64,000 nucleotides of DNA, taken from contig NZ_CP031223.1 in NCBI RefSeq assembly GCF_008973485.1, positions 4,054,001 through 4,118,000 on the forward strand, written 5' to 3'. A program made the position numbers and the translations under genes. The stretch comes from Psychrobacillus glaciei. GTDB taxonomy: Bacteria; Bacillota; Bacilli; Bacillales_A; Planococcaceae. Each line of letters starts with the position of its first letter. The first letter of the stretch is position 1. Shown one piece after another: positions 380 to 23,891 of this stretch. A model generated the notes under the pieces. It did no database searches, was not told the DNA's origin, and worked only from the letters and a program-made list of their open reading frames with translations.

Positions 380-442
380 TTCAGCTCCTTAGGCAAATAT
401 TAGTTCTATTGTATCAAAACTAATCATTTACTTCAGCAGAAT

Positions 443-1603: not shown

Positions 1604-1649
1604 ATTGTAATTCCTTTCTAAATATCTATTCGTTATTACATTATTAATT

Positions 1650-1683: not shown

Positions 1684-1960
1684 AACTATGTTAAGTATCT
1701 TATAAGATTCAAGTTTCAATTGCAATCAAAAAAGTATAGTATAGCCTATTTTGTTTTTATTTTTTGTCCAAATTATGAAAAGAGAGGATCGTTACTAACT
1801 AATGAATTATGACTGAATAAAATGAATTCATCTTCTCAATCTTGACCTAAAATAAAAATAAACGCTGCTCGTTTTTACAGGAAAGTGCCTTATTTCTGAA
1901 GATAGTTGAATATACTTTTGTAGTATCCTGACTGTATAAATTACAAAAGGGGCAATTCAA

Positions 1961-2116
1961 ATTACTTTAGCGAACATAATAGCTGATATTTTTTCGTTAA
2001 ACGATAGGGATAAAGAATCCATTTTAGATTATCTAACTCGCCATTTCTCGTCGCCGGCTTCACAGCTAGGAGCTTTAATTGGTGAATTGTTCAGTTACAA
2101 TTCAGTCGGGTACTGA
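1961..2116 (+). other. Short open frame cut by the left end of element X
   Basis: An open frame of about 51 codons (LANIIADIFSLNDRDKES near its start) runs from about 1961 and ends at TGA 2114-2116. AAAGGGG stands 8 bp upstream, but the codon at the right distance is ATT, not ATG/GTG/TTG. Its last codons lie inside the terminal repeat of element X (starts 2088), so the natural C-terminus is probably lost. I do not recognise it. It may be a gene remnant from the original downstream flank or from an even older insertion. Apart from this, 1700-2087 shows nothing I can name. Confidence 0.25.
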
Positions 2117-2134
2117 TAAGAATTATCAAATTAA

Positions 2135-2168
2135 AAAGGAACCAAGTCTTTCTTAACAGGTTCCCTTT
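2135..2168. terminator. Imperfect hairpin inside the left end of X
   Basis: AAAGGAACC (2135-2143) can pair with GGTTCCCTTT (2159-2168) with one bulge. It could act as a terminator isolating the element from its left flank. Confidence 0.3.
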
Positions 2169-2257
2169 TGAGGTGCAAACATTGCAAATCACATCATATT
2201 TTTTTGTTACTTATATCAATGCAATTCTCAGAGTAAATTACATCAAAAGACGCAAAG

Positions 2258-2283
2258 AAGGGATAGCAATTAAGCTATCCCTT
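2258..2283 (-). terminator. Terminator of the XRE/DUF2975 operon
   Basis: AAGGGATAGC (2258-2267) and GCTATCCCTT (2274-2283) form a perfect 10-bp stem with a 6-nt loop, downstream of the XRE gene stop codon on the minus strand. Confidence 0.7.
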
Positions 2284-2330
2284 AAATTCTCTTTCAACTC
2301 CCATTAGTTAAATAAATTTGTTGTCTGTTT

Positions 2331-2549
2331 TTATTGAGTGTCTTCGTCGCTTTTGTACTCCAAAATATCACCTGGCTGACAATTCAAAGTCTTACATATC
2401 GCTTCTAATGTTGAAAAACGAACCGCTTTTGCTTTCCCATTTTTCAAAACAGAAATATTTGCCATAGTAATTCCAACCCTCTCCGAGAGCTCCGTTACGC
2501 TCATTTTCCGTTTTGCTAACATTACATCAATATTAATGATAATTGCCAT
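2331..2549 (-). CDS. yozG: XRE-family small DNA-binding regulator (YozG-like)
   Basis: A helix-turn-helix protein of about 72 residues with the Cro/C1 pattern: MSVTELSERVGITMANISVL covers helices 2 and 3, and the end is acidic. I prefer the ATG at 2549 (about 8 bp after GAGG) to the GTG at 2558. It directly follows the DUF2975 membrane gene, starting about ten bases after that gene's stop. The same gene pair occurs in Bacillus subtilis as yoaS-yozG, where the small regulator probably controls the operon. Here the pair is the only cargo of element X. The function of the pair is unknown to me beyond probable autoregulation. Confidence 0.75.
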   Translation of the reverse strand: MAIIINIDVMLAKRKMSVTELSERVGITMANISVLKNGKAKAVRFSTLEAICKTLNCQPGDILEYKSDEDTQ

Positions 2550-2559
2550 ATCATCCACC

Positions 2560-3045
2560 TCAGACCGTCAAGTCATTTTCTGATTTTATGTTAATCGCTT
2601 CTTGTAGAAGCCGTTGGAGGATAGCAGCAAAAACGGCAATAACCAACGAAGCAAAAATGATGATGATTCCCATTAATCCAATAGGAGGGTCAACTTTCTT
2701 CGCTATAAAACGGAAGAGTGGCAAACCTAATACATACAAACCACTGATTGTAATCGCACTGCACTTTATGTTCTTTAACGCCTTTACAGATAAATCCGAG
2801 AACGCTGCGTTTTCGTCAATGTACCTTAAAAGATTGAAAGCCTGATAGAGAGCAAAGTAAAAAGGCACAGCCGCTCCATACATCACGATGTAAACGAGAT
2901 ATTTCATTGGGACAATATTTGAATACAATTTTGATGCGAAATTCGCCATATGGGGCACTAAAAATATACATAAAGCAAGAACTGCAATTCCAGCCAGAAA
3001 AATAATTACCTTTAAAAAAGTGGTCGAACCTCGTTTAACATTCAT
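2560..3045 (-). CDS. yoaS: DUF2975 membrane protein (YoaS-like)
   Basis: About 161 residues with four hydrophobic segments (about 12-32, 45-65, 95-115, 122-145), matching DUF2975 proteins, which are usually coupled to a YozG-type XRE regulator as seen here. The GTG at 3054 lies inside the ribosome-binding site (GAGGTG), so the ATG at 3045 is the better start. It is first in the two-gene minus-strand operon. The family has no established biochemical role; a membrane sensor or effector for the XRE protein is possible but unproven. Confidence 0.75.
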   Translation of the reverse strand: MNVKRGSTTFLKVIIFLAGIAVLALCIFLVPHMANFASKLYSNIVPMKYLVYIVMYGAAVPFYFALYQAFNLLRYIDENAAFSDLSVKALKNIKCSAITISGLYVLGLPLFRFIAKKVDPPIGLMGIIIIFASLVIAVFAAILQRLLQEAINIKSENDLTV

Positions 3046-3235
3046 ATTAAGCACCTCGCTTATTTAATGACAATATAAATTTAACACAACTTTTATTGTT
3101 TTGCGATAAATCTTTATTGTTTTTCATTATATTATTTTTTTATTTAAATATCCTTTTAATTTTGGCAAAAATAATATGCACTTCTCATTACAAAGAAATG
3201 CTCTTACCTTAAAATGTTAAATTTACAACTTGTTC

Positions 3236-3271
3236 AAAAAGCTCAATCCGAATAACATGGATTGAGCTTTT
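3236..3271. terminator. Hairpin in element X
   Basis: AAAAAGCTCAATCC (3236-3249) pairs with GGATTGAGCTTTT (3259-3271), a strong stem with T-rich flanks on both strands. It could terminate transcription in either direction. Confidence 0.6.
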
Positions 3272-3306
3272 CTAATTCAATTAACAAGGGGGGGTTATTG
3301 ATTTAA

Positions 3307-3358
3307 ATTTCAGTTTCCAACTTTGTTGTTCAGTAACCGATTTCGTTGTCATTTAACA
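3307..3358. repeat. Two degenerate right-end repeats of the X/Y family
   Basis: CAGTTTCCAACTTTGTTG and CAGTAACCGATTTCGTTG, the second followed by TCATTTAACA, resemble the X/Y right-end unit (GGTACCCGACTTTGTTG followed by TCATTCAACA). The second copy ends in AACA like a true terminus. They are either internal transposase-binding sites of X or the right end of an older, decayed copy. Confidence 0.5.
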
Positions 3359-3453
3359 CTTGATGATCTAAATAAAATAGAACAGTTTAGTGAATTATTT
3401 ACATAATCGACAAGAGTAAAAGCTTCAGTTAATTCAACAATCGCTGCATAAAA

Positions 3454-3489
3454 AAAGACCCAAACCAATTATAATTGGTTTGGGTCTTT
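3454..3489. terminator. Strong bidirectional terminator next to the X right end
   Basis: AAAGACCCAAACCAATT (3454-3470) and AATTGGTTTGGGTCTTT (3473-3489) form a perfect 17-bp stem with a 2-nt loop. It lies just inside the right terminal repeat. Element Y has an analogous hairpin (7717-7751) just inside its right end, so this may be a shared design of the family. Confidence 0.7.
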
Positions 3490-3655
3490 AAACGGTACCC
3501 GACTTTGTTGTCATTCAACAAAATTGTTCAGTTACAACTAAGTCGGGTACTATGGAACGCTGTAACCCGCATTCCTATGTTATGTGAAACACTTCACACA
3601 AAACAAAGTCGGGAACCAGTTGTTTTTACTACCTGACAACTAAGTCGGGTACTGG

Positions 3656-3849
3656 AAAGGTAGATTGCTATCCATTTAATGAATGAGTCTTATTAAGACT
3701 CATTCACCCTTACTTTGCTGTTCTATTGCGATATAAGATCAGCGTAATTGCATTTAATAGGACGTTACCGATGAAAATAACTGCTACGTTAGTGAAAAAG
3801 CGTCTCCTATTGTTGTAGTAACCAACTCCGTTACTTCAATAAGCTATTT
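3656..3849. other. Left part of element Y: hairpin and a membrane-protein-like remnant
   Basis: AATGAGTCTTATTAAGACTCATT (imperfectly 3679-3703) is a hairpin. On the minus strand about 36 codons ending at TAA 3710-3712 read VAVIFIGNVLLNAITLILY and then NRTAK, a hydrophobic C-terminal segment without any start codon. It may be a gene remnant. Nothing else is supported in 3656-3849. Confidence 0.3.
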
Positions 3850-3959
3850 TTATTCTTTTACCTCAATTTTTTTTGCTCCAGCTAGAGCAGGATAAGATTC
3901 ATCAATGCCACCATCAATCCATACCTCCACTTTGTAACCTTTCCTTAAGCTACTGGTGT
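3850..3959 (-). pseudogene. DUF3221 lipoprotein gene, 3' fragment (cut by IS21-family element)
   Basis: Reading on from the 5' fragment across the IS, and counting the GGTGT duplication once, the frame stays open and gives SSLRKGYKVEVWIDGG then IDESYPALAGAKKIEVKE before TAA at 3850-3852. The VWxDGxIDESYPAxA pattern is the C-terminal signature of DUF3221 proteins. The two halves together would make about 120 residues, a normal length for the family. The gene is inactive only because of the insertion. Confidence 0.8.
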
Positions 3960-4052
3960 TGTAAACGCTATACTAAAGTGAGCAATTTTCCACAAATAAG
4001 ATTGAGCAGTTCTCCTCTAAATCAACCACTTCCTTTATACTGAATTGTGTAA

Positions 4053-5627
4053 ATGGAAAGTGGGGAATCTGGAGTGACAAGGTTTATGGTTTATACGAAA
4101 ATTTATGAATTATATGCAATGGGCTTTTCGAAGTCTGCAATTGCGAGAAAGTTAAGTATTTCTAGAAATACCGTTGCTAAATATTTAAAGAATACATCGG
4201 AGGAATTTGAAGAGTACCTACTCTCTTTGCAAACCCGTAAAAAGAAGTTAGATCCCTATCGGGATATCATTCTTGCATGGCTAAAAAGGTACCCTGATCT
4301 AAGTGGCGCACAGGTCTATGATTGGTTGAAAGAGAAACAAGATATTAGCGAAGAAGATATAGCTGAGAATACGACAAGAAATTATGTAAATGAACTACGT
4401 GTTGCATATCATATACCAAAAGTGTCAGAACAGAGAGTTTATGCAGCTGTCCCAGATAGTCCTATGGGTTTTCAAGGACAAGTAGATTTCGGTCAAGATC
4501 TTGTAACTGCTTATGACGGAACAAAAAAAAGACTTTATTTTGTCGGGTTTGTATTATCTCATTCTAGGTTTAAATACATTGAATTCTTAGATAGACCTTT
4601 CCGTACAACAGATTTAGTTCGTTGTCATGAGAATGCTTTTGAGTTTTTTGGAGGAATGCCCGAAGAATTGGTTTATGACCAAGACGCTTTACTCGCAGTA
4701 AGTGAAAATGCTGGTGATTTATTATTTACAAAGGAATTTGATAACTACCGAAAATTAAGGAAGTTTAACATTTATTTATGTAGAAAAAGCGATCCAGAAT
4801 CTAAAGGTAAAATTGAACAAGTAGTTAAATTTGTAAAGCATAACTTCATGAAAAATCGTGAGTTCCAAGACATTCATTTGTGGAATCAACAAGCTATTCA
4901 ATGGCTAGGGAGAACTGGAAATTACAAAGTACACCATAATACAAAAAAGAGACCTTCTTTAGTGCACACTGTCGAAAAGCTGCACCTAAGAAAAATCTCT
5001 TCCAAATTCTCCTTCGAGAATTCCCTTACAGAAAGTATAACAAGAACTATTCAAAAGGACAATATCATACGCTTTGAATCCAATCGCTATTCTGTACCTG
5101 TAGGTACTTACGATGCAAAAACTAAAAATGTGGCGTATTTAGAAGTATCTATAGATGGATATTTAGACATTCGATTACAGATAGGTGGTCCACCAATTGC
5201 AAGACATTTAGTTAGTAGTTTAAAGGGTCAATTAATTTATGATCCGTCTCATCATAAGAAACCTAGCTCAAAGAAAACACTTTTGAGAGAGGAAATTGAG
5301 CTTGCATTTTCTAACCAGGAATTAATTACTTGGTTCTTGGACGAATTGAATAAGAAGTATCCAAGACACTTGGTAGATCAGTTTAAAGTATTACAAATGG
5401 TCATTCGAAATCATCCAGACTACCTAGAAGAAGCGCTAGAAACAGTAAAAACTTTAAATATGATTAGTGCAAATGATTTTAGAGATATAGCTTTTACGTT
5501 ACATAAAGAGTCAGAATCGCAAACAAAACAAGTAAGTGTAGAGTCATCAAAATATCAAAAATACAAGGCTGCAGAACGATCAGAAGATTACTATATTCGG
5601 TTATTATCTGGAGGTAAAAGATCATGA
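4053..5627 (+). CDS. istA: IS21-family transposase IstA
   Basis: A 524-residue DDE transposase. The N-terminal helix-turn-helix reads GFSKSAIARKLSISRNTVAK at about residues 22-41. The integrase core has the first catalytic Asp in GQVDFGQ (about 145), the second in LVYDQD (about 210) and the Glu in ESKGKIEQ (about 250). The C-terminal region matches the Mu/IstA type. An internal ATG preceding VYTKIYEL (about codon 12) is an alternative start. The stop overlaps the istB start by 4 bp, which implies translational coupling. It cuts and joins the element ends together with IstB. Confidence 0.92.
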   Translation: MESGESGVTRFMVYTKIYELYAMGFSKSAIARKLSISRNTVAKYLKNTSEEFEEYLLSLQTRKKKLDPYRDIILAWLKRYPDLSGAQVYDWLKEKQDISEEDIAENTTRNYVNELRVAYHIPKVSEQRVYAAVPDSPMGFQGQVDFGQDLVTAYDGTKKRLYFVGFVLSHSRFKYIEFLDRPFRTTDLVRCHENAFEFFGGMPEELVYDQDALLAVSENAGDLLFTKEFDNYRKLRKFNIYLCRKSDPESKGKIEQVVKFVKHNFMKNREFQDIHLWNQQAIQWLGRTGNYKVHHNTKKRPSLVHTVEKLHLRKISSKFSFENSLTESITRTIQKDNIIRFESNRYSVPVGTYDAKTKNVAYLEVSIDGYLDIRLQIGGPPIARHLVSSLKGQLIYDPSHHKKPSSKKTLLREEIELAFSNQELITWFLDELNKKYPRHLVDQFKVLQMVIRNHPDYLEEALETVKTLNMISANDFRDIAFTLHKESESQTKQVSVESSKYQKYKAAERSEDYYIRLLSGGKRS

Positions 5628-6397
5628 CTTCTCCAATCGAATTATTGCAAGATAAATGTAGAACTTTGAGACTCGCTGAGACTGCAAAAGAGCTTCCCGC
5701 TCTTTTGCGCAATGCCGAATCCAACAGTTGGACTTATCACGAATTTATCAACGAACTACTCACTCATGAAACAGCGTGCCGAGAAAAAAAGACTGTTCAA
5801 CGTTTAATGCAATGGGCAGACTTTCCCTACCAAAAGACATTAGCTGATTATCGGCTGGAAGAACAAAATGTGATTGGTGAAAGACAGTTTAAATTGTTAA
5901 AAGACCTTAACTGGATTGAAGAAATGTTTACACTGATTATAATGGGTCCCCCAGGGACCGGAAAAACACTATTGTCTGTGGGATTAGGCACTTTAGCCAT
6001 TGAAAATGGATATCAGGTTTCTTTTGTCTCGATGGGAGAGCTTATCTACATTTTGAAAAGCCGTGACTATGTTAGTAAATCAAAAACACGATATAAACGA
6101 ATTTCAACATCCGAATTAATCATTATTGATGATGTAATGTATATGACTGTAGATCCGAAAGAGGCAAGCTTATTCTTTCAATTTATATACGATATGTATG
6201 ACAAATCTGCGTTTATATTAACGTCAAATAAAGGGCCAAATGAATGGGGTAAATTTTTAGGGGACACTTCTTTAACCACAGCTATATTAGATCGACTCCT
6301 TCATAGAAGTGAGGTAATATCCTTCGGAGAGGACGAAGAAAGTTTAAGAATGAAGTACAGAAAAACTTTGTTTCCCGAAGTAAGTGCTCAAACTTAA
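5624..6397 (+). CDS. istB: IS21-family helper ATPase IstB
   Basis: A 257-residue AAA+ ATPase of the DnaC/IstB type: Walker A GPPGTGKT (about 108-115), Walker B LIIIDDV (about 165-171) and a sensor region ILTSNKGPNEWG. It regulates IstA and selects target DNA, much as TnsC does for TnsAB in element Z. Its start codon overlaps the istA stop (ATGA). No damage is visible, so the insertion sequence is probably active. Confidence 0.92.
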   Translation: MTSPIELLQDKCRTLRLAETAKELPALLRNAESNSWTYHEFINELLTHETACREKKTVQRLMQWADFPYQKTLADYRLEEQNVIGERQFKLLKDLNWIEEMFTLIIMGPPGTGKTLLSVGLGTLAIENGYQVSFVSMGELIYILKSRDYVSKSKTRYKRISTSELIIIDDVMYMTVDPKEASLFFQFIYDMYDKSAFILTSNKGPNEWGKFLGDTSLTTAILDRLLHRSEVISFGEDEESLRMKYRKTLFPEVSAQT

Positions 6398-6457
6398 TTG
6401 TGGAAAATTGATTAATCTTATTTTGTGAAAACTGCTCAATTCTACTTGACGGTTACA

Positions 6458-6715
6458 GGTGTCTTCATACCTTAAGTAGAAAAGTGAAATCCTTTCCTTA
6501 CCCAACTCTTGAAGTGTTTTATCTTTAAGTGTTTCATATTGTTCTGAAGTAATGTCTTTAGCAAGCAATATTCTTCCTTCATATACTTCAAGTATATAAC
6601 CTTCTATTATTAAACCTTCCTCTTTCGGCGTGGTTCTATTTTCTGCACATCCTGTTATGAAGAAAACAAAACTCAGAAAGATTAAAATTGTACAAAAATA
6701 CCGTAAAAGTTTCAT
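6458..6715 (-). pseudogene. DUF3221 lipoprotein gene, 5' fragment (cut by IS21-family element)
   Basis: The start at 6715 follows GGAGGG. The first 22 residues form a lipoprotein signal (MKLLRYFCTILIFLS, then FITGC with the lipobox Cys). The mature part contains EGYILEVYEGRILLAKD, typical of DUF3221. The true reading frame breaks at the GGTGT duplication after LFYLRYEDT; beyond it the frame runs into IS sequence. The 3' remainder lies at 3850-3959. The original product would be a small membrane-anchored extracytoplasmic protein of unknown function. Confidence 0.8.
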
Positions 6716-6921
6716 TTTTATCCCTCCTACAAATAGGTGTTTTATCAAAAAAAACGTTTTTCTTTATTAAACTAACCTGCGGCGTTAGTTCAATAAGATA
6801 AAAGAGCTGTCTGATCTGCTCAACGATTTTCACTAAAGCACCCGTTAGTTTAATAAGAACAGAAACGCTTATTCAACAATCACGCCCGTTTGTTGAATAT
6901 GTAAGTTAATATTTGTATGGG
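6716..6921. repeat. Short dispersed repeats inside element Y
   Basis: GTTAGTTCAATAAG (about 6784-6797) and CCCGTTAGTTTAATAAG (about 6842-6858) are near-copies. Further copies are CCCGTTAGTTTAAG (about 7473), GTTAGTTTAAG (about 7610) and GTTACTTCAATAAG (about 3829). Each lies in non-coding DNA of Y. They resemble short repeats scattered between genes in other Bacillaceae; I cannot assign a function. Confidence 0.5.
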
Positions 6922-7398
6922 TTAGAGATTTAACACAGTTACTGGTTCATTTTCGCATATCTCACCGTTATCATGAAACCCAAAACTTTCATAGAACTTT
7001 TTAGCAACAATGTTTTCGGCTTCATATGCTAACCAACAATATTGAGCATGCCCTACAGGGAATGTGCGTATGAACTCTAATATTTTTTTCATAGCCTCCC
7101 TACCATATTCCTGATTTTGGTATCTTTCACCAATCATTAGACGCAATATACAATAATTATTATTAGCGATTTTCGGAAGCTCGTAACCAGTAATACCATA
7201 AACAATCATAACAAATCCTACTATCTGTTCATCAGCATAAATTGCAAAAGGAAGTGGACTCCCTCCATTGGTAGCAAGAACATAACATGAAGCAACACTT
7301 GAAAGATTGGATGCAACAAAACGGCGTTGGTCCTCTGCAACTTCTAACCTGAATACCTCCCTTCGATTTTCTAATGTAATTTTCCGAAGTGAAATCAT
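6922..7398 (-). CDS. GNAT-family N-acetyltransferase (cargo of element Y)
   Basis: 158 residues with the GNAT fold: beta strands around PFAIYADEQIVGFVMIVYG, the acetyl-CoA loop region RYQNQEYGREAMKKILEFI (about 110-128; a Q/RxxGxG-like motif as QNQEYG, so the last Gly is not seen) and the C-terminal KKFYESFGFHDNGE. The overall pattern is of the RimI/spermidine-acetyltransferase (SpeG/BltD-like) type. The start follows GGAGAGAG. It is the only intact gene that belongs to Y itself. The substrate is unknown; drug, polyamine or protein acetylation are all possible. Confidence 0.8.
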   Translation of the reverse strand: MISLRKITLENRREVFRLEVAEDQRRFVASNLSSVASCYVLATNGGSPLPFAIYADEQIVGFVMIVYGITGYELPKIANNNYCILRLMIGERYQNQEYGREAMKKILEFIRTFPVGHAQYCWLAYEAENIVAKKFYESFGFHDNGEICENEPVTVLNL

Positions 7399-7864
7399 GT
7401 AACTCTCTCCTTCCCAAAAATTAATTTACTCTTCTTCTATTCTTTAACAGGGTCCTCGTATTCCTTCCTAAACCCGTTAGTTTAAGTGCAATATTTCGCA
7501 AATACACTCCGTAATTAGAATAAATATTCAATTTTACTTGATATTCTTCCTCCGTAAAATGGCATGATTGTTGAAGGCAAGTTAAACAACACTCTTCAAC
7601 TAACCTGCCACGTTAGTTTAAGTGAACTACTTCACAATCTTTTTTGACTACATCTATATATTACCACATTATTATTCAATTACCTTGAATTGTCAGTAAA
7701 TTTAGATGAACGTAAAAAAGCACGACCCTATAAAAACTTGGGTCGTGCTTTAAATTAAATTTTTCTATTGAAAGTGTCAGTTCCCGACTTTTTTGTCATT
7801 CAACATCAAATTAAATTTATTTATTGAACATGTCAGTACCCGACTTTGTTGTCATTCAACAAAA
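7399..7864. other. Non-coding right part of Y: repeats, terminator, right end
   Basis: No gene is supported here. A perfect 12-bp stem, AAAGCACGACCC (7717-7728) with GGGTCGTGCTTT (7740-7751), forms a terminator. Two copies of the X/Y right-end unit follow (7779-7808 and 7832-7861), both with GTCAGT(T/A)CCCGACTTT. Element Z begins three bases after the end of Y. Confidence 0.6.
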
Positions 7865-8010
7865 TGTTGGTTTGGAATAAAGTTTGATTAAAAAGATGCT
7901 TTAAACATTGATTTTATAATAGAAGAACAAATTCCGTTTTGTAAAAAAGATTGATCAAAATACTAGTTCATCTTATTTCTTTGAGATACTATTTTGTAAA
8001 AAAGATTGAT
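7865..8010. repeat. Left end of Z: three spaced TnsB-site-like repeats
   Basis: Copies: TTTGGAATAAAGTTTGAT (7871-7888), TTTTGTAAAAAAGATTGAT (7937-7955) and the same 19 bases at 7992-8010. Tn7 also has three spaced TnsB sites in a left end of about 150 bp. The stop codon of the first cargo gene lies only about 20 bp inside. Confidence 0.85.
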
Positions 8011-8031
8011 TATTTCATTTTATAAATGCAA

Positions 8032-9072
8032 CTAACAAATTAGAATATATTCAACATCAACAATTTTACCTTCCTCAACATCTTCAGTTACTTCATTCCA
8101 AAGTTCTTCGTATCTATTAAAGGATATCCAAAGTTCATCTATATACTGTGGTTTTTCTATATTCTTAATTACATCAATAATAGCCGATTCTTCATAATTA
8201 CTTTCATTAGTAATTAATAATATTCGCTTATATTCATTAGACATATAATTTCGGAATTTTTTTTCACATTCACTAAAATAGGAATTTATTCTAGTTAATA
8301 GCGCTGCTTTAGGAGGAATGAAAATATCTTGTATAGTGGACTGTTCAAAATATTCTATCGCAAATGAACTAGTCTTATTTGACTTTCCAAAAACAAATTT
8401 TATTTTATCGATACTAAATTCTTCTATAAATCTACTTTGTTCAAAATTTCCTTCAAGATAAATGATAATGTTACGAATAATATGATTTACACAACGACCT
8501 ACTATCTTATTTTTTAAAGCTTCTTCACTCCCCCCTTTGTAGGAGAGAAAATTCTCTGGAACTGAACCTAACTTATATTTTTTTTCATTAAAAGAATTAA
8601 TAGATATAGCTAATAATAAACCATTTTAAAAAAAATTTGTTTGCTCTGGCGTTATCTCTATACGCAATTCCTCTAGAGTTTTAAGAACTTTTTCTACAAC
8701 AAGTTCTCCAATACCATTTAAAAAGCTTTCTATAAAATAGTACATCCTTTTTCTTTCTTTATTATCTTTCTTAATTGATTCATAATATAAAGTGTGGAGA
8801 GATTTCACCTCAATCACTATTTTTTCCTCACTATTAACTCTATTGATTAGAATTGCTTCGGGTTCAGGATTTGCCTTTTTTTCAAACTTAGAATCGACAT
8901 CGCAACACTTTTCTAGAGTATAATCATTATATTTTTTAAAAGTGAAATCACTAATTCCCTTAGTATATTCACATCTTCGAAAACAATCATTATTATATAT
9001 ATTTGATTTACCCTTGTAATATTTATTGTCTTTATCCATCTCATTGCAAGGAAATTCAAATTCATGTATCAT
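8032..9072 (-). pseudogene. PD-(D/E)XK-like cargo gene split by one in-frame stop
   Basis: The first part (9072 to 8626) encodes 148 residues ending PEQTNFF, then TAA at 8626-8628. The same frame continues open for 198 more codons (NGLLLAISINSFNEKKYKLG... to VEYILIC) until TAA at 8032. A single nonsense codon therefore divides a gene of about 346 residues. At about residues 70-90 the pattern PEPEAILINRV then KIVIEVKS resembles the PD-(D/E)XK nuclease core. The stop lies at the end of a run of eight T, but the frame does not change, so this is a substitution, readthrough or recoding, not a slip. An ATG at 8244 could start a 70-residue product. Function unknown. Confidence 0.7.
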
Positions 9073-9141
9073 TAAAATTCTCCTCTAAAAATATTGGATT
9101 AAAATTATTAAATACAAAAATAAACAAACTAATCTTCATAT

Positions 9142-10179: not shown

Positions 10180-10627
10180 GTCGTATTCCTTTTCTCCATT
10201 CTTCAGATTTTTTATATTTTAAACATGATTTCCACATTTCTCATCTACATATCATTAGAATATTTTCCTGAGAATTTTTCAATTTTAGAATAGATATCAT
10301 CAAGTAAATTCCACCCCTTTAAAAAGTATCCATTTAACGTCTATTCTAACTGATATTCAATAAAGGGCATAAATACATTGCCAGATTGACTTTACCATTC
10401 CCCAATTTTAAATTACTGCGTTGTTTATTAGGAGATTGTATAATTTATCTGGAAAACAAACAATAGACTCTAATAGAGACGGATTATATTTTGACAACTT
10501 ATTTCCACCTTTCTTTGTCTAAAAAATAAAAAAGAATCTTTTTTAAAAAGTAAATAAAAATAGTGTCAGAACCATGGTTAATAATGGATCAAACACTACT
10601 TCTTCTTAATAACAATGTAATATGTAA
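10180..10627. other. Cargo intergenic region
   Basis: No gene is supported. The region is very AT-rich; AAAAAAGAATCTTTTTT at about 10530 could be a weak terminator of the upstream DUF2290-like/helicase pair. The 345-residue cargo gene probably has its own promoter here. Confidence 0.4.
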
Positions 10628-13548: not shown

Positions 13549-13771
13549 AGTGCACCTCTTCTCAATTTTTACCTTCGTTACTTAATTAAACTATACATTA
13601 CTAGTTAAATAAATATTAAAATACTCCCCCGATCTGAAATTTTATTTGCTCAAGCGATCAAAATCCTAATCTTCTAATACTTCCTTCTTTACACATTTAG
13701 CTTTCAGGTCTCAAAAGGATGGCTAATCTAATTTTAGTAAATTTACTGGATTAATAAATTTAACAAGTCGT

Positions 13772-15670: not shown

Positions 15671-15687
15671 TTCCCCAGATTTTTCAA

Positions 15688-17514
15688 CTATCTATAATTT
15701 TTTATATAAATTTCTAACATAGGTTTTATTTTTTGAAAATATACCGATTTTATCCCTGCATTTCTTTGTAATTTCCAAAGAATTATCGTTTCTTTTTCTA
15801 GTAACATTCTATCGATTAATTTATAACATCTTCGAAGTTGATATTCTTGTATATTCTCAGTTATTTCATCCAGTAATCTTTTAGTAATTGGTAACTTGTC
15901 CAAATGGCGCTCTAAATTAGCTAGTATGCCTAGCTGTTTTCCTATCACTGAAACAGTTATACGAACTGGCTGTTGTCGGTCCAATAATTGTTTATACAAC
16001 AGTTTTACTTCTCTAACATAAACTTTGTCTCGTATTGCCCAATCAACTGTTTTAGTAGGTTGTTGTTTCTTTTGTTTAGGAGATAAGCGTTCCATAAGCC
16101 ATTGCTTATCGTGACGATATAAAAACATATATTGCTTCTTAAATTCTTCTCGCAAAGCTGTTCGAGATAAAAGAGGAAACTCTTTCATTCCAGAAATAAT
16201 TTCATTTTTGTATTGCTGCAGTCGCACTATATCTATTTTATATTTCTTTTTATTATCTATTTCTAAGTGTTCTTCCAGATACTTTTTAACTGTTTTAGAA
16301 TCTACTCCAAGCTCTCTAGAAATAGCTCTTGTGCTTATATTTTTATTAGCCAACTGCTTAAGCTTAATCTGCCACACCTCTCCAAATTCTTTTACTCGCC
16401 CTATCCGGAATTTATCTTCTAGTGAAATATCAGGACCTTTTCTTGCATAAACAAACCCACAGGAGCAAGTAAATGTACCGATAGGAGAGTTAGTTTTATA
16501 ATCTCTTGTTACTTCCACATCTTGAATTACTCGTTGATTGTAATGGGTTGTTCCTTTATTCAGACAAGGGAACGGTCCTGTACCAAATGGGCCTTCATCA
16601 GCTTTACTATTAACGAAATCATCTATGCCTTGTTCTAGAAAATAAAGCGTTAGCAAGTGTCTAAATGGATGTACATGACGTTTTGAATTACGCGTAATAA
16701 TCTTTAGCCAGTTGTACTCATTATTTATATCCAAATCACTCTCATGTTGGTTTAAAAAATCTGTTGGAAATTTACTTCGAAATCCTTGATACAGTTCTTT
16801 TTGTCGTAACCGATTTGAAACTGTAACAAGATTCTTTTCACGTAATAATGCACGATATTTTAATGTTATTTCCTCACGTGAAAGCTGATGTAATGATAAC
16901 TGCAATAGTTTATACACTTGCTTTGCCAAATGAACCGAAAAATTTGCATAAGGATCAACTTTATAAATTGGCGAAAGATTCATCTTGTCTATTTCAAAAC
17001 GAATATATTCAGTACGACTAGTGATTTCTGCTTCATATTTTAGTAATGACAACTCATGATGAGGGCAATATTCAATTCCTTGCAATTGATGCTCTCGATG
17101 GATATAGGGCTCGCCATATCTATTTAGATCTGCTTTTGCACATTCTCCACAATAATACAGTCCATCTTTTCTGCATATGCTTCCAGCTACCACACCAAGC
17201 CTTGTATAAAGTCCTTTTCCATCTCCTGCAACATCTTGCAAGATTTCTTGCTGACGTTGCTTTGAAAGAAAGATTGCATAATAAGGATAAATTGTATGAT
17301 TTGCTAATATATTTTCAACAGAGTAATTGGAGCCAAGCTGCTCAGCTAATACAGAAAAATGGCTACCAATCTCCACACTCGGGATCACAGAACGACTTTG
17401 AAATAATTCTTCTAAAGTGTCCTTACAATCAATATTTCCACTATAAAAGTGATAACGAGCAATCGCTGAATATATTAATTCATCTGGATATGGATTCGTA
17501 AAGAACGGTAGCAT
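15688..17514 (-). CDS. tnsD: TnsD/TniQ-family target selector, first copy
   Basis: 608 residues: TniQ domain (LPFFTNPYPDELIYSAIARY at residues 2-21), zinc-finger-like CRKDGLYYCGEC followed by YCPHH (about 112-155), and a helix-turn-helix STRAISRELGVDSKTVKKYL at about 395-415. The start follows GGGGGA at a good distance. It lies 85 bp downstream of tnsC. In Tn7, TnsD binds the 3' end of glmS and recruits TnsC and TnsAB; the insertion 26 bp past the glmS stop shows that one of the two TnsD proteins did this here. Which one cannot be told from sequence alone. Confidence 0.88.
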   Translation of the reverse strand: MLPFFTNPYPDELIYSAIARYHFYSGNIDCKDTLEELFQSRSVIPSVEIGSHFSVLAEQLGSNYSVENILANHTIYPYYAIFLSKQRQQEILQDVAGDGKGLYTRLGVVAGSICRKDGLYYCGECAKADLNRYGEPYIHREHQLQGIEYCPHHELSLLKYEAEITSRTEYIRFEIDKMNLSPIYKVDPYANFSVHLAKQVYKLLQLSLHQLSREEITLKYRALLREKNLVTVSNRLRQKELYQGFRSKFPTDFLNQHESDLDINNEYNWLKIITRNSKRHVHPFRHLLTLYFLEQGIDDFVNSKADEGPFGTGPFPCLNKGTTHYNQRVIQDVEVTRDYKTNSPIGTFTCSCGFVYARKGPDISLEDKFRIGRVKEFGEVWQIKLKQLANKNISTRAISRELGVDSKTVKKYLEEHLEIDNKKKYKIDIVRLQQYKNEIISGMKEFPLLSRTALREEFKKQYMFLYRHDKQWLMERLSPKQKKQQPTKTVDWAIRDKVYVREVKLLYKQLLDRQQPVRITVSVIGKQLGILANLERHLDKLPITKRLLDEITENIQEYQLRRCYKLIDRMLLEKETIILWKLQRNAGIKSVYFQKIKPMLEIYIKNYR

Positions 17515-17599
17515 TCTAATGTCCCCCTAGTTATACGCGACTTACTTTTATAATGTCGATACAACTAGGTTTTTAGACACCTCATGCCTTAATTTTTAA

Positions 17600-19291
17600 T
17601 TACTTATAAAATTCTTGTAATGGATTTTTAATAAATTTCATAACTTTCAACAATTCATATGGATGTTGCTTTTGTTCTAATGCTTTTGTTCTTAGCGCTA
17701 ACAATGGCAATAATTCTACCTTTTTCACCCCAGGTTCTTTTCTTACTTTCTTTTGGTGGTTTAATATAATAGCCTTTTGAATTGCTTCAGTTTTTAATAA
17801 ATTTAAATCTGTATCAATAGGGTTATTATCAACAATTTTTGCGATGAGATTTCTAATTTCATTTACATTTAAACTATCGAAAATTCCTAATGCTGAGATT
17901 TCCACACTCAAGTTTTCAATCATATCTCGTCGTCTATAATCCAGTGAATGTTGGCGTTCTTTAAAGCCTTTGCGGATTCGCCCTTCTAGTTCCGTATCAA
18001 GCTTATGATTAAGCATCAGTTCATCTAAATTAATCATGATGTCCTCATATTTCATCATGTCTTTTAAATTATTGGTACGAATTGCTTTCATCATAGGCTG
18101 AAGAATTTGCATATCTACTTTAGCAGTCTTTTTGAGCACTTTTGAATTAATAATTTCATTAACATTATCATCATTAAACATCGCTCGCTCCTGAGCCAAA
18201 ATAAATAGACAAACAGCAACAGAAGTTATTCCTTGGCACTCATCATAAAACGTCTTTCTCACATCATTGGTAAGTTCAGAACGTGTTTTCAAGCATTGTA
18301 GTTCCCACAATGTTTCCAAGAAAAACTCCCATTCTTCACTATCCTCAGCCATACGGTCCCAAATGATAGCACCGTCACTTGCTGCACGACGGGCTTGACG
18401 AAAGTTTCCTTTAAACAACTGTTGTGCTTTTGATGTGCCGATTAGAACCGTTGGAATCCCTACCGTATTGGACAATGTAACAAAGAAGTTCAACATTTCC
18501 TCTTGATCATTTTTTGAATGTAAGAGATGCTGAATTTCATCTATTACTAGCACGCCAATTCCATACATGCTGGCCAATGAAGTCATGTGAAGAAGCATTG
18601 TTGACGTAACGCGATTCAAATAGCCATATTTCTCTAAATAACGAGTTCCCAATAAATCATCAATCGCTTTAAAAAAGCTTTTGCACAGCGTTGAAAGACT
18701 ACCATCATATGGGCAATCTATTTTAAGCCAAACAATTTGTGTACGATTAAAAGGCATTCCTTCATAAGTTTCATGCTTAATGACTTGTGGGTACATAAGT
18801 AACAAGCGTTCTATTGCTGTCGTTTTACCGATACCTGAAATCCCAATAATCGAAAGGCTATCAGCTGTTGAACGAATATAGTTCAAACGCTCATCAATAT
18901 GCTTATGGGCTTCTGCTTCATCCTCCCGCAATTGATGCAACACTCGAATACGTTCTAAAAATGTTTTATCTAACGGATTACGAGCTAAGTATCCCCGACG
19001 AATTAATGTCGATAGTCTTCGTTCTACTTCAAAATGAATTGGTAAAGGCTGAATGAAATTTTTTACACGCTTTAAAATATGGTAGCGAACGTTTGCTTCA
19101 CTTTGTTTATCTTGTTTTGTTATACGAGGTGTCACCATAAAGCGCTCAATTACTTCATCTTCATCAAAAATTGGTGGCAGAGATTCGATGAATGGATTAT
19201 TACTGTATTCAGATAAAGCTTGCTCTTTATAGATCGCTGTTTCAAATTCCCCTCTCAGAACAAGATTACTCATCCTTTCCATATTTCTCAT
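17600..19291 (-). CDS. tnsC: TnsC AAA+ ATPase, transposition regulator
   Basis: 563 residues with Walker A GISGIGKTTAIERL (about 150) and Walker B GVLVIDEIQHLLH (about 245), an AAA+ module of TnsC/TniB type. It passes the target signal from TnsD to TnsAB and gives target immunity. It overlaps the end of tnsB by 26 bp; internal ATG codons at 19282 and 19273 are alternative starts. There is no sign of damage. The length is close to Tn7 TnsC (555 residues). Confidence 0.9.
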   Translation of the reverse strand: MRNMERMSNLVLRGEFETAIYKEQALSEYSNNPFIESLPPIFDEDEVIERFMVTPRITKQDKQSEANVRYHILKRVKNFIQPLPIHFEVERRLSTLIRRGYLARNPLDKTFLERIRVLHQLREDEAEAHKHIDERLNYIRSTADSLSIIGISGIGKTTAIERLLLMYPQVIKHETYEGMPFNRTQIVWLKIDCPYDGSLSTLCKSFFKAIDDLLGTRYLEKYGYLNRVTSTMLLHMTSLASMYGIGVLVIDEIQHLLHSKNDQEEMLNFFVTLSNTVGIPTVLIGTSKAQQLFKGNFRQARRAASDGAIIWDRMAEDSEEWEFFLETLWELQCLKTRSELTNDVRKTFYDECQGITSVAVCLFILAQERAMFNDDNVNEIINSKVLKKTAKVDMQILQPMMKAIRTNNLKDMMKYEDIMINLDELMLNHKLDTELEGRIRKGFKERQHSLDYRRRDMIENLSVEISALGIFDSLNVNEIRNLIAKIVDNNPIDTDLNLLKTEAIQKAIILNHQKKVRKEPGVKKVELLPLLALRTKALEQKQHPYELLKVMKFIKNPLQEFYK

Positions 19292-21425
19292 CTCGCTTCT
19301 TCTTTAATTTTTCCATTCGACGTGAACTAGCCTTTTTAGAAGGTTCTTCAATTTGTCGATTTTTTGAAGTGAATTCGATTACTTGTGCTGGTTGTTCACT
19401 CACTTTTTCTACTAAATTAAACTTCTCATAATTTCTGTTCATAATTTTTTCTGCTTGTCTATTTACACGAATATCTTTAACTTTTTCTGAATTACTTACG
19501 TAATTAGGTACAGTACTTTTCTTCTGAGCTACTGCTTGGCTAATGATAGATTCAATTTCTACATCTACATTAATTGTATTTTCTTTCTGGTTAACCGTTT
19601 CCTCTTTTTTTAATTCTTCACGTAAATCTTGAAAAAACTCAATTTCTTCAAAAAAACTTCCTTTAAATTGCGCGCTCGTTTCTAATAAATAGCATGTATC
19701 AAAACTACGTCCATCTGTGTGCGGAATATATAATTGATTCATATTCCTTGGATCATAAACGACCTCGATACTTTGTTTTTTAAATTTTAAATACCATTTT
19801 TCGTTCAATGCTTTTTCAGAACCATAAAAAAGCCCCTTAAATCTAATACCTGCCCGGGTTATTTTGGCATTCCCTTTAGGTAATAAATTCAGTCTCATCA
19901 CATTTTGATCTGTGACAGTCTGAAGTCGACCTTTTTTATTTTCAATGCCCCAATACCATAAATTAATAGGAGTCGCTGTTAATTTATCCGCAATCATTTC
20001 TTTTTCAAGTGGATACTTATCAATAATTTTCTGATTGTGGTGTAACACAAGATGAATAATGATTTTCGTAAATTCTTCTAAATTTAAGCTCGCATCTAGA
20101 CGATAATCACGGTCTCCACGTTCACGATATTCTTTTTGTATTGCTCCAGGAGCCTTACGTTTTATCTTGCCATTAATTGTACGGAATTGTCGTTCAATAA
20201 TTCCTTTTAAATCGCCACGATAAGGCGAGGTGTTTTCAATTTTTACATTTAAGTTGTTTATCAAGTTTTCTACTGAATAACCTTCAAATTCGCCACGGTC
20301 AGCTATGATAATCTCTGACAGATGATGAGCAGGCCATTGTGATTCTTCGATTGCAATATCATACTTAGCACAAAATTCACCTTTATTCATCACCATGTTA
20401 TCTAAAGTCATCATTGCTCCGAGCCATGACGGTCCTTCTAGACCAACATATATCCCTGTAATCATACGTGAATATACATCAATCACACCATAAACAATGG
20501 GACGTCCTATAATTAACGACCGATCAAATGAACTTACTAAATACACATCTGCAATTGTTGCATCAATTTGAAAGCGTGTACCAGGACCATCCGTTTCAAG
20601 TGTTGAATTACTTAAAATAGGACGGTGCTTTAATTCAAACTCTTTTGAACTATATCTTAACTGGATATCAATTTGAGGGTCTTCTAGTTTTTTAAACCAA
20701 TAGTAAAACTGCGTATAGGTAGGTATTCTTGAAGCATCCCAAACCTTAAATTTTAATATATTTCCTTCATAATATTTGTCAGAATAGAATTCTCTTAATA
20801 AATAGTTATAAGTATCTGTAAGAGAAAGCTGCTCTTTTTTTCGATAATACTTCTTGATGACATAATTAAACTGTTTTTTTACTTCTTCAGTGGTATTGAT
20901 ACCATTTTCAATTGAAGTATATTTCCTCGGTCGACCTACTTTAGCTACCGTAGTAAGAATCCGTTCTTTCCCTTTACCACCGGAGTACATATAATCCGGC
21001 AATAAAGCATTTTTATTTAATCCACGTTGCCAAAAGCGAGAAAAGATGCGTTTAACCTTTATCTTAGCAATATCGTTTTGTATCGCTAACCTATCAAAGG
21101 CTTCGTCTCTTAACTTTTTATTTAACAAATCATCCTTTAAATTAGCCCAGCCTACAGTTACAATGGTCCAATCTTCATCGCGTATTTGAATTTGCTTTTC
21201 TGTTAAGTCATTATCTGAGTAGCTTTTAGCAAATGGATCTGGAATAGGTAATAATATATCACTTTGCATTTCTGCTTCTAAGTCCACAGTAAACGCTTTT
21301 TTAGGCATTGACGTATCACCATGAAGTTCCACGAAATAAGCAACATCACTATCTATCTCGATCACGCGAATACGATTTTTTTCTTCTCTATCGGTATACT
21401 GATATACATGGTTGTAAAAAATCAT
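19266..21425 (-). CDS. tnsB: TnsB DDE transposase
   Basis: 719 residues, close to Tn7 TnsB (702). The catalytic triad is visible: Asp in TRFQIDATIADVYLV (about 284), Asp in IIIADRGEFEGY (about 370) and Glu in LKGIIERQFRTING (about 408). A Mu-type beta-barrel domain follows, and the lysine-rich C-terminus (KKASSRRMEKLKKKRDE) would contact TnsC. It binds the end repeats and joins 3' ends to the target. The start overlaps the tnsA stop by 4 bp. Confidence 0.93.
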   Translation of the reverse strand: MIFYNHVYQYTDREEKNRIRVIEIDSDVAYFVELHGDTSMPKKAFTVDLEAEMQSDILLPIPDPFAKSYSDNDLTEKQIQIRDEDWTIVTVGWANLKDDLLNKKLRDEAFDRLAIQNDIAKIKVKRIFSRFWQRGLNKNALLPDYMYSGGKGKERILTTVAKVGRPRKYTSIENGINTTEEVKKQFNYVIKKYYRKKEQLSLTDTYNYLLREFYSDKYYEGNILKFKVWDASRIPTYTQFYYWFKKLEDPQIDIQLRYSSKEFELKHRPILSNSTLETDGPGTRFQIDATIADVYLVSSFDRSLIIGRPIVYGVIDVYSRMITGIYVGLEGPSWLGAMMTLDNMVMNKGEFCAKYDIAIEESQWPAHHLSEIIIADRGEFEGYSVENLINNLNVKIENTSPYRGDLKGIIERQFRTINGKIKRKAPGAIQKEYRERGDRDYRLDASLNLEEFTKIIIHLVLHHNQKIIDKYPLEKEMIADKLTATPINLWYWGIENKKGRLQTVTDQNVMRLNLLPKGNAKITRAGIRFKGLFYGSEKALNEKWYLKFKKQSIEVVYDPRNMNQLYIPHTDGRSFDTCYLLETSAQFKGSFFEEIEFFQDLREELKKEETVNQKENTINVDVEIESIISQAVAQKKSTVPNYVSNSEKVKDIRVNRQAEKIMNRNYEKFNLVEKVSEQPAQVIEFTSKNRQIEEPSKKASSRRMEKLKKKRDEKYGKDE

Positions 21426-22261
21426 ATTGCTTTCACCTTATCAGAAAAATCTGTTCGAACTGCTTTTATATTTAGAATTTTAGTCACGTCTAGCTTTTCA
21501 CTTAAATCAATTTCAATTACTTTAGTCATTACAAGATACTTAAAAATGGAAAGACCACATCCAACTACCATGCCAAAATTGTTTTCCATCTCTTTTGCAA
21601 TTTGCTTAACGGTCTTTTCCTGAGCTAACAGAACTTGAAGAAAGTAAATACTCATATCTTCAATATCGTATGTGCTACATTTCTCAAAGCCCTCTAACAT
21701 TGCTAAGTCTGCATATCTATGAACAAAAGCTATATTATGAGCAATTGTTTTCGGCACCTCTAGTTCTGTTACGATTCCCCACTGAACACCTTGTCTTTCC
21801 CAATAAATACGCTCAATTTCAAACTTTTCGAGTACACGTTCATCCATTAAATCTTTCTTATATTTTAAAGTGCGAGCTATATGCTCATGTTGTCCATCCT
21901 TTAAGGTCGTTACAAGAAAATCCGTAGTCATCACAATAGGCTCATTGGTCTTAGGGTCAGTAGGATGCTTGATACCTAATTCATCCGCTATTACAATTGT
22001 TTCTTCAATAGTGAGTAAAGGATACTGTTCCCGAATATCGACTACTAAATCTGAATATTCTAATAAATAAAAGTAGTTTCGTTCCAAATCTGAAAGAAAT
22101 TCGAATTGTCGCGGAATCTTATAACCTTTTAACCGCGTAGAGCGTCCAAGTGAACCTACATCTTGAATAACTAACCACGGCTTATAATCCGTTCCTATTC
22201 CTTGTCCGCGACCGTCTTTTAACCTTTTCTCAACTGACGATGAACGTTTGCGTTTCGCCAT
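21422..22261 (-). CDS. tnsA: TnsA endonuclease
   Basis: 279 residues (Tn7 TnsA: 273). The restriction-endonuclease-like core shows Glu in LSDLERNYFYLLEY (about 63), Asp in IVMTTDFLVT (about 113) and Lys in RTLKYKKDLMDE (about 131), followed by a winged-helix C-terminal domain that binds TnsC. It cuts the 5' ends so that the element leaves the donor by cut-and-paste. The start lies 6 bp after the stop of the ApeA-like gene and is preceded by GGAAGAGG, so both are on one transcript. Confidence 0.92.
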   Translation of the reverse strand: MAKRKRSSSVEKRLKDGRGQGIGTDYKPWLVIQDVGSLGRSTRLKGYKIPRQFEFLSDLERNYFYLLEYSDLVVDIREQYPLLTIEETIVIADELGIKHPTDPKTNEPIVMTTDFLVTTLKDGQHEHIARTLKYKKDLMDERVLEKFEIERIYWERQGVQWGIVTELEVPKTIAHNIAFVHRYADLAMLEGFEKCSTYDIEDMSIYFLQVLLAQEKTVKQIAKEMENNFGMVVGCGLSIFKYLVMTKVIEIDLSEKLDVTKILNIKAVRTDFSDKVKAI

Positions 22262-22267
22262 AGCGCA

Positions 22268-23713
22268 TTACCTCTTCCTATTCATATTCGTACTACGAAG
22301 GGCTTGAAGATAGGAGCGATGTTTTGATATTTTCAACACCTTCTCCTTGGTTATAGCTAATATTAACTCTTCACTTAGTTCTAATTCTGTCATCAAATAA
22401 TATTCAATCATTATAATTAACAACGTCGTTAGTTGAACTAACTCTTCACCTGTTACAGCCTTCTTCCTCAAACTTTCATCAAAATGAGTATTATAATTTC
22501 TAGTATTTTTAATATCCTTTATCAAACTTTCAATCTTAATTCCTTGAAGTTTAAATAGATGGTATGCTTTCCCATAGTTTTTATTAGTCGTGTTTTTTAC
22601 TGGGAAAAACAAATCTTCTAATCGTTCATGTAAAGATGGTTCATTAGAAAAATTTAATTTACCTTGTAGCCAATCTCTATATTCTTCTGGGCCTGAAGAT
22701 AATATAGAATCTATTTTCAACTTATGCTCAGCTTTAGGTAACACTACATTTTTTCTAGTTAAACGATGGTAAGCTTCTAACGCTTGAACAGCATTTAAAA
22801 AATGCATCTCATAAGATGTATGCTGATAGTTAATACCAGTGTATAAATCAATAACGGGCTGTAAAAGTTCATTTTTAGAAAACCAGTTTTCCATACACTT
22901 TTCAAAGTCATTAGCTATTTTATCTAGTCTTAAATTAATATTAATAAAATGCAATTTAGGTATTTCTTCTACTTCACTTTTTTCTATACCATGTCCGTAA
23001 ACTTCAAAAGGTAAAGTAAAATCAGCTTGCTTGTTAGGAATTGGCATTGCTACAATTGTTTCAATATAAGTGCGGGTTGATGTACAAAGAGTAAGAAAAT
23101 CACGAACTTTATTAATTAGAATTAGTGCTTGTTCTAATGGTTTAGGTTGTTCAAATAAGATTTTAAATTTACAAATTGTATTAATTTTAAACTCATGCGA
23201 ATGTTGAGAGAAGTAATCTGGTATCACTTCATAATCAATACTAAAAATAAAATCTTCATACTTACAATTTATATTTTGTAGCTCCTTGACTGTAATTAAA
23301 TGTCCTTTTTCTACGTCATAGTCTATCTCAATAGCTTCTTGATGAGCCCATACATCCATATTACTGAGTTTAAAATTCACTTCAGTAACAAGCAAGTCTT
23401 CAATGTTTTCAAATAAAACGTCTTCTAATACATACCTGCAATGAACAACTATTTCATAACGTTTTGAATAATCATTTTGGGAAGATATTGATACATTTTG
23501 AGCTAAACTACAATCAACTAATGTAAAAGATGTTCCTCTATGTGTTTTACCAAATACATTTGCAGAAAAATGCGGAAGTTCAACAGCTTCTTCGTTATAT
23601 AGCTTCAACTCATATATTTTTTGTTCATGATTAATTTCTAGTATTCCATTTAAATCAATATCACTACCTAGTACTCTCCAACTTCCATAATGCATACTAT
23701 TATTTCGAGACAC
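22268..23713 (-). CDS. ApeA-like HEPN-domain protein (probable abortive-infection RNase)
   Basis: About 481 residues from the GTG at 23713, preceded by GGGGGA; earlier in-frame codons reach 23812 but lie inside the terminator next to the right end. The N-terminal half has the beta-rich ApeA pattern: GSWRVLGSDIDLNGILEI near the start, then HRGTSFTLVDC and FKLSNMDVWAHQEAI. The C-terminal half is a HEPN domain with the RNase motif RxxxxH in IKNTRNYNTHFDES (about residue 425). ApeA is an established anti-phage protein thought to cut RNA. Here it is the first gene of the tns operon, between the transposon end and tnsA, which is an unusual cargo position. Confidence 0.78.
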   Translation of the reverse strand: MSRNNSMHYGSWRVLGSDIDLNGILEINHEQKIYELKLYNEEAVELPHFSANVFGKTHRGTSFTLVDCSLAQNVSISSQNDYSKRYEIVVHCRYVLEDVLFENIEDLLVTEVNFKLSNMDVWAHQEAIEIDYDVEKGHLITVKELQNINCKYEDFIFSIDYEVIPDYFSQHSHEFKINTICKFKILFEQPKPLEQALILINKVRDFLTLCTSTRTYIETIVAMPIPNKQADFTLPFEVYGHGIEKSEVEEIPKLHFININLRLDKIANDFEKCMENWFSKNELLQPVIDLYTGINYQHTSYEMHFLNAVQALEAYHRLTRKNVVLPKAEHKLKIDSILSSGPEEYRDWLQGKLNFSNEPSLHERLEDLFFPVKNTTNKNYGKAYHLFKLQGIKIESLIKDIKNTRNYNTHFDESLRKKAVTGEELVQLTTLLIIMIEYYLMTELELSEELILAITKEKVLKISKHRSYLQALRSTNMNRKR

Positions 23714-23762
23714 CTTAATTCCCCCTAAGATAGAATTCCAACTGCTTTTTTCTGAAAAATAA

Positions 23763-23807
23763 AAAAATAACCCCTTACGGATATAATACCCGAAGAGGTT
23801 ATTTTTT
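23763..23807. terminator. Bidirectional terminator at the right end of Z
   Basis: AAAAATAACC (23763-23772) pairs with GGTTATTTTT (23798-23807), with further pairing inside (CCC...GGG). It lies between glmS and the ApeA-like gene, so it should stop glmS readthrough into the transposon. The -35/-10 region of the tns operon must lie between this and 23713, or overlap it. Confidence 0.65.
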
Positions 23808-23809
23808 AT

Positions 23810-23891
23810 CAATCTTTAATATAAATGAACAATCTTTAATATAAATAATCAAACTTTGTTACAAATGATCAATCTTTTTTACAAAGCAACA
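23810..23891. repeat. Right end of Z: four tandem 20-bp TnsB-site-like repeats
   Basis: Units at 23810-23829, 23830-23849, 23850-23869 and 23870-23889 follow the pattern CAA(T/A)CTTT..TA.AAATGAT. The outermost continues to CAACA at 23891. Four abutting sites at the glmS-side end and three spaced sites at the other is exactly the Tn7 arrangement. Confidence 0.88.

Follow-up and report, generated by a model that had tools for sequence, protein, structure and literature searches.

Small elements without transposition genes stacked behind a Tn7-like transposon at the glmS site of Psychrobacillus glaciei

How do Tn7-like elements that share the same ends come to lie next to each other at one attachment site? 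Portions of two papers (PMC11406308; PMC12452197) state that a resident Tn7 hinders insertion of another Tn7 close by, and one of them cites earlier work for a range of up to 190 kb in E. coli (PMC12452197). Here, we analyse a window of 64,000 nucleotides from Psychrobacillus glaciei (contig NZ_CP031223.1, positions 4,054,001 to 4,118,000), in which three elements, termed X, Y and Z, form an array beside the attachment gene glmS, with ends of one kind on X and Y and another kind on Z. Parks and Peters reportedly described in 2007 how Tn7 builds genomic islands at attTn7, and the Tn7 right end is said to carry the immunity, a result attributed to Arciszewska et al. in 1989.

A stack of three elements beside glmS

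Read away from glmS, the array runs 26 bp, Z, 3 bp, Y, 4 bp, X (Table 1). This confirms the stack of three elements that a sequence-only reading had described, and the evidence supports an array of one complete Tn7-like transposon (Z) with two older small elements behind it that lack a transposase of their own (X and Y). The label of three Tn7-like elements given by that reading suits Z, which is complete; X and Y are not full transposons, and the left boundary of X looks rearranged.

Z encodes tnsA, tnsB and tnsC as ordered Pfam matches and two target selector genes with TniQ and TnsD domains. Its TGT...ACA ends contain several TnsB-type sites (four 20-bp units on the right, spaced sites on the left), the 5-bp target duplication CAAAA stands on either side, and the insertion point is the attTn7 position 26 bp after the glmS stop, a distance similar to that in relatives. 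glmS gave a single match in each of the 19 genomes of the genus (E <= 1e-100). No transposition (tns) gene was found among the open reading frames of X and Y, so that neither qualifies as autonomous.

Each newcomer would have inserted between glmS and the right end of the preceding element, X first, Y second and Z last. The nested junctions, and the recurrence of this arrangement in relatives, support the order of age as originally proposed. The idea that the X/Y ends are a dispersed repeat was rejected, since all six matches in the genome lie inside the array. Nor do X, Y and Z always travel together: genome G014 carries Z's transposition genes (78% identical over 8.5 kb) and lacks the 28-base X/Y right terminus at up to 3 mismatches, its one 2-mismatch match of a shorter 19-mer lying far from glmS; G003 holds a Y-like element and gave no TnsB match; and in another genus (G075) an X/Y-type right end is followed by the two cargo genes of X (92.7% identity over 862 bp). 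Among the genomes compared, no strain with exactly X, or exactly X and Y, at the glmS site was found, and no clean empty site was seen among the 19.

Relatives have similar stacks, so the site next to glmS can be read as a record of delivered genes. In Psychrobacillus insolitus DSM 5 (G003) one X/Y-type element directly follows another, and GTTGT stands on either side of the one nearer glmS. The right flank of that element is on contig C19 and its left flank on C5, and both contigs end in what may be a group II intron. In G156, an autonomous relative of X and Y with ACGAT on either side stands immediately ahead of a tns-less element. In G075, the element nearest glmS bears tns genes and belongs to a third TnsB clade (tnsD in two frames), with the X cargo next in order, and G012 has a 2.3-kb Z-type element with AGATT on either side and a tnsA remnant of about 88 bp, in which no tns genes were found. 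Mixed stacks occur in Lysinibacillus sp. FJAT-14745 (G062) and in G015. Oriented positions 4176-4540 of G062 form a chimera, in which Z-type right-end units that lack their terminus come after an X/Y-type right end; this points to erosion of stacks by deletion as well.

A Tn7-like end was recognized at glmS in 18 of the 19 genus genomes, a count that rests partly on reading the sequences; a periodicity test alone gave at least 3 units in 14 of the 19. Beyond that test, G003, G006 and G017 have single sites, G018 has sites and tnsA remnants, and G011 is ambiguous. Eight TnsB-site motifs occupy the one glmS site within the genus, motifs F2 and F9 belonging to one TnsB clade. Stacking beside glmS is already known as a kind, and the stack and its order stand. 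Judged from the literature searched, what appears new is that tns-less elements of one family lie side by side with reduced right ends, and that Y carries cassette-like cargo; searches of the open-licence literature turned up no account of stacked Tn7-like elements without tns genes in these genera.

The X/Y end family and right-end site number

Judged from their ends and from TnsB sequences, X and Y belong to a Tn7-like family other than Z's. The 28-base right terminus of Y (<=3 mismatches) was found in 18 of 261 genomes of the bacterial family, spread over 6 of 19 genera; the control gave 0 matches. In G016, G156, G233, G236 and Cytobacillus oceanisediminis 2691 this terminus is the first of 4-5 tandem units and starts 23-25 bp past the glmS stop, ahead of tnsA, B, C and D; the Cytobacillus element has TAATG on either flank. 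The distance from right end to tnsA in these five autonomous elements is 2.9-5.1 kb. Their TnsB proteins are 74-80% identical to one another and 36-38% identical to that of Z (clade support 100/100). Z was rejected as the source of X and Y, since its sites and its TnsB differ.

Y has ends homologous to the autonomous G016/G156 clade on both sides: its left end aligns with those of the elements in G016, G156 and G233 at 77-80% identity over 92-129 bp, and its inner right-end copy is identical over 28 bp to the right terminus of the G156 element. For X, such homology is confined to about 28 bp at either end. When this genome was searched with the Cytobacillus TnsB (E <= 1e-20), only Z's TnsB was found, 41% identical in that alignment. 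Among the 18 genomes searched in this way, members of the Cytobacillus clade (75-80%) are restricted to G016, G156, G233 and G236; the other 14, all with X/Y-type ends, have no TnsB of that clade, and five of them carry other TnsB genes or pieces.

The number of right-end sites varies with the presence of tns genes. Among 28 right ends listed at up to 4 mismatches, a limit that leaves out the right end on contig C56 of G001 (5 mismatches), the five with 4-5 units all lead to tnsA-D, and for the 23 with 1-2 units no tns genes were found within 16 kb in the same direction. A period-20 test was applied to 28 glmS loci, a non-random sample in which tns genes were called from tnsA/B/C matches over 100 bits within 16 kb or the shorter part available. 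All 14 loci with such genes have 4-5 units; among the 14 without, three have 4-5, two have 3 and nine have 1-2. The Fisher value of 3e-5 is descriptive only: the threshold was picked after looking, the sample was partly chosen for X/Y-type ends, and related genomes are included (TnsB of G004/G005 and of G001/G010 round to 100% identity). X and Y each have a one-unit right end plus a second copy further in. In a scan of the genus, most later elements of a stack have one site at the right end. With its motif list built from glmS-proximal ends, the scan found no second right end in which the same motif was repeated at least three times.

These short right ends may be decayed or functional. In the second G156 element and in the first G003 element, the single unit runs on into the sequence found behind the final unit of the autonomous G156 and G016 ends. 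F4-motif ends behave alike (G012 and G015 compared with G002 and G008), so tandem units were lost cleanly. Repeat contraction would give just this pattern, as expected if X and Y are fossils that were complete at insertion, later lost their tns genes by deletion and had their right ends shortened by slippage, with no mobilization in trans. We consider this history somewhat less probable than its converse. The tnsA remnant in G012 shows that internal deletion occurs, tns genes are decayed in G018 and G199, and X and Y are themselves degenerate, with an IS21 insertion, doubled ends and an IS1595 fragment. It fits less well that Y, the proximal G003 element and the element on G001 contig C56 are alike near the right end (Y matches them at 86% over 101 bp and 83% over 124 bp) and none shows tns genes, so the tns-less state either arose several times or is old. 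The tns-less proximal G003 and G012 elements also have perfect 5-bp duplications, and the terminal 28 bp differs between genera by 0-3 mismatches, although the limit set for the search favours such matches.

Several points weigh against the preferred reading, in which X and Y arrived as small elements without tns genes. One weak point is that these genes may have been lost after insertion. The 23 short right ends include four in X and Y, two of them inner second copies, and one inside the G233 element; the absence of tns genes behind them counts for less because several loci end before 16 kb (681 bp in G003; 3.4-7.9 kb for the X and Y rows), and the genes were sought with Z's proteins only, so that very diverged ones could escape. 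The rule on site number is not strict, because tns-less stretches with full right ends exist (G002, G013, G015). What recurs in G075 is the cargo and not the whole of X, since the right-end region cannot be aligned with that of X. The target duplications are imperfect as well: with TGT...ACA termini Y has 4 bp (AAAT), and a one-base change of register is needed to obtain 5 bp, and X has no clean duplication, its left flank lying inside a truncated IS1595, with 4 of 5 at best (GAATT / AAATT, one-base shift).

The outer border of the array is not a pristine insertion, because the truncated IS1595-type sequence abuts X. Window positions 1915-2089 are 89% identical (155/175) to the beginning of an IS1595-type transposase unit from G005, and the match stops at the first bases of X; a short reading frame left of X was considered as a host gene, a reading that was rejected since the frame is the beginning of an IS1595-type transposase gene. 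The longer G005 copy contains DDE_Tnp_IS1595 (PF12762), and its middle has no match in this genome, where only the 5' piece and, elsewhere, four short matches to the last ~120 bases occur. A later deletion or recombination may have joined the left end of X to an IS1595 copy, leaving X older or larger, and the array once longer, than they now appear; we put this at not quite an even chance. In its favour, insertion sequence runs right up to the terminal bases of X with its middle nowhere in the genome, and the match to G011 covers window positions 15-1683 (68.9%) and not 1684-2087. The precise join at a transposon terminus fits transposition better than random deletion, and the 4-of-5 duplication obtained by the one-base shift would imply that the insertion sequence was cut before X arrived.

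A single insertion of X and Y as one composite, or an origin of the two by duplication of one element in tandem, is very improbable: they share ends and lie 4 bp apart, but their genes are unrelated, the AAAT spacer repeats the flank on the glmS side of Y as sequential insertion predicts, and comparable pairs with other contents occur in G003 and G156.

Cassette-like sites, target immunity and gene collection

The two genes of Y are flanked by three copies, one of them degenerate and all oriented like the genes, of a 21-bp palindromic motif, AACTAACGNNGCAGGTTAGTT, which has 83 copies in this genome (<=2 mismatches) and 0 in the control. All 23 copies below 2.02 Mb are on the plus strand, 58 of the 59 chromosomal copies above 2.24 Mb are on the minus strand, and one is on the small contig C2; this switch suggests a possible link to replication direction. 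In three regions inspected the motif mostly separates single small genes. Homologous segments at different places often start or stop at sites; one such pair of 418 bp (98%) has offsets of -9/-9 and +17/+17 from the site centres. Many other homologous pairs show no such limits, and stretches within 25 bp of a site make up 3% of the sequence. At up to 1 mismatch the motif occurs in 116 of the 261 family genomes, in up to 180 copies, with one control match overall.

A XerA-like tyrosine recombinase of 279-294 amino acids sits in these arrays in the opposite direction to the sites (G000:C1:2340685-2341521, 1954086-1954922 and others; G002:C30:177090-177926), and in G002 one of the copies is found 1.3-2.1 kb from glmS. 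Broken copies are frequent; in other genera, the best copies reach 91-94% identity. Copies of at least 80% identity were counted in 29 of 41 genomes with at least 10 sites and in 0 of 145 with none, by hand and with thresholds set afterwards; 17 of the 145 site-free genomes have a relative of 58-65% identity. The genes of Y had no match in the cassette regions retrieved, and a distant pair (35% and 30% identical) occurs in G063. The excess of sites in glmS arrays (16 observed, 4.1 expected) is weak because the count includes Y's own two.

Integrons assemble gene cassettes in arrays, and Tn7 itself carries a class 2 integron with cassettes. Y resembles these in carrying genes as site-bounded units; it differs in that its site is a 7-7-7 palindrome and in that the array recombinase is XerA-like, one of these proteins scoring 222 bits against a cut-off of 220 for NF040815 and 88 against 265 for the integron integrase (IntI) model TIGR02249. 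Nothing in this genome scores as high as the TIGR02249 cut-off. The part of the IntegronFinder 2.0 paper considered here reports a single complete integron in Firmicutes (PMC9024848).

Same-family neighbours occur despite the expected immunity in three places: X and Y here, the tandem elements of G003, and G156, where an autonomous element stands directly ahead of its tns-less relative. Under Tn7 target immunity two adjacent elements with the same ends are not expected, and we hypothesize that one-site right ends give weak immunity, which would explain such neighbours. Taken further, the glmS site in this bacterial family could be a two-layer gene collector, a speculative picture that we consider unlikely as a whole. 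A previously unrecognized cassette system (the AACTAACGNNGCAGGTTAGTT site plus the XerA-like recombinase) would bundle single genes, small tns-less elements such as Y would carry the bundles, and helper transposons would deliver them to glmS in trans; one-site right ends would bind too little TnsB for target immunity, so that same-family elements could pile up. Engineered mini-Tn7, in which cargo between two Tn7 ends is moved in trans to attTn7 by TnsABCD, is similar in its cargo between Tn7-type ends, X and Y being natural and having the right end reduced to a single site.

If X and Y are helper-dependent passengers, Tn7-like gene transfer in these bacteria exceeds present counts. Surveys anchored on transposases would miss tns-less elements, and 14 of the 28 glmS loci had no tnsA/B/C detected. 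The array is like those of Benler et al. 2021 in its defence and accessory cargo within defined ends and in its nested insertion sequences; elements such as X and Y would seem uncounted in that survey because, in the legend considered, ends were taken from binding sites upstream and downstream of the transposase, and the terms 'nonautonomous' and 'multiple Tn7-like' do not occur in that paper (PMC8649781). Same-family neighbours make target immunity, a long-assumed rule, directly testable with natural ends, and the order and junctions allow the arrival of cargo, for instance the apeA-like gene of Z, to be dated in relative terms.

Annotated features and cargo

Table 1. Features of the glmS array, in window coordinates
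Feature	Position	Strand	Basis or remark
5' fragment of IS1595-type insertion sequence, cut at X left end	1915..2087	+	89% to longer G005 copy
X, tns-less Tn7-like element (oldest)	2088..3520	-	ends; cargo
X left end	2088..2115	+	
X cargo, small helix-turn-helix regulator	2340..2549	-	PF13443 4e-26
X cargo, DUF2975 membrane protein	2560..3054	-	PF11188 7e-39
X inner degenerate right-end copy, second site adjoining	3331..3358	-	162 bp in
X outer right end	3493..3520	-	
Y, tns-less Tn7-like element (second oldest)	3525..7861	-	ends homologous to autonomous elements; no tns gene
Y left end, three sites	3525..3655	+	
Cassette-type site, degenerate, far end of DUF3221 unit	3774..3794	-	
IS21-type insertion within Y's DUF3221 gene	3976..6441 (approximate limits)	+	
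istA of IS21	4053..5627		
istB of IS21	5624..6397		
Y cargo, DUF3221 lipoprotein-like gene, split by IS21	6344..6748	-	PF11518, E 1e-4
Cassette-type site, exact, between Y's two cargo genes	6770..6790	-	
Y cargo, GNAT acetyltransferase	6922..7398	-	PF00583
Cassette-type site, exact	7598..7618	-	
Y inner right-end copy	7778..7805	-	56 bp further in
Y outer right end, one site	7834..7861	-	
Z, complete Tn7-like transposon	7865..23891	-	ends, CAAAA duplication 7860-7864 / 23892-23896, tns genes
Z left end, spaced sites	7865..8012	+	terminal, about 7938-7957, 7993-8012
Cargo pair UvrD-like helicase and DUF2290, defence candidates	10628..13548	-	Pfam, PADLOC
tnsD copy 2	13772..15670	-	PF15978 3e-89, TniQ
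tnsD copy 1	15688..17514	-	PF15978 1e-98, TniQ
tnsC	17600..19291	-	AAA_22, TniB
tnsB	19266..21425	-	Mu-transpos_C; TnsB tree
tnsA	21422..22261	-	PF08722, PF08721
apeA-like HEPN defence gene	22268..23812	-	Pfam ApeA_NTD1 2e-44, HEPN_Apea 8e-35; PADLOC
Z right end, four 20-bp TnsB-type sites	23808..23891	-	repeat family D4; period-20 test
glmS, attachment gene	23918..25720	-	Pfam SIS and GATase domains; insertion point 26 bp past stop

The DUF3221 assignment in Y is weak, at 22.8 bits for PF11518, below the 26.4-bit cut-off. Compared with Tn7-like elements at attTn7, X and Y differ in having no tns genes at all and one-site right ends, and Z in having two tnsD genes and a defence gene, the apeA-like HEPN gene, placed between its right end and tnsA. 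Tandem tniQ/tnsD genes are known, with 1,048 loci given in the part of PMC10293859 considered here. Z also encodes two open reading frames without a Pfam match. Its two tnsD genes (13772-17514) are neighbouring and diverged, and two such genes are also present in G014.

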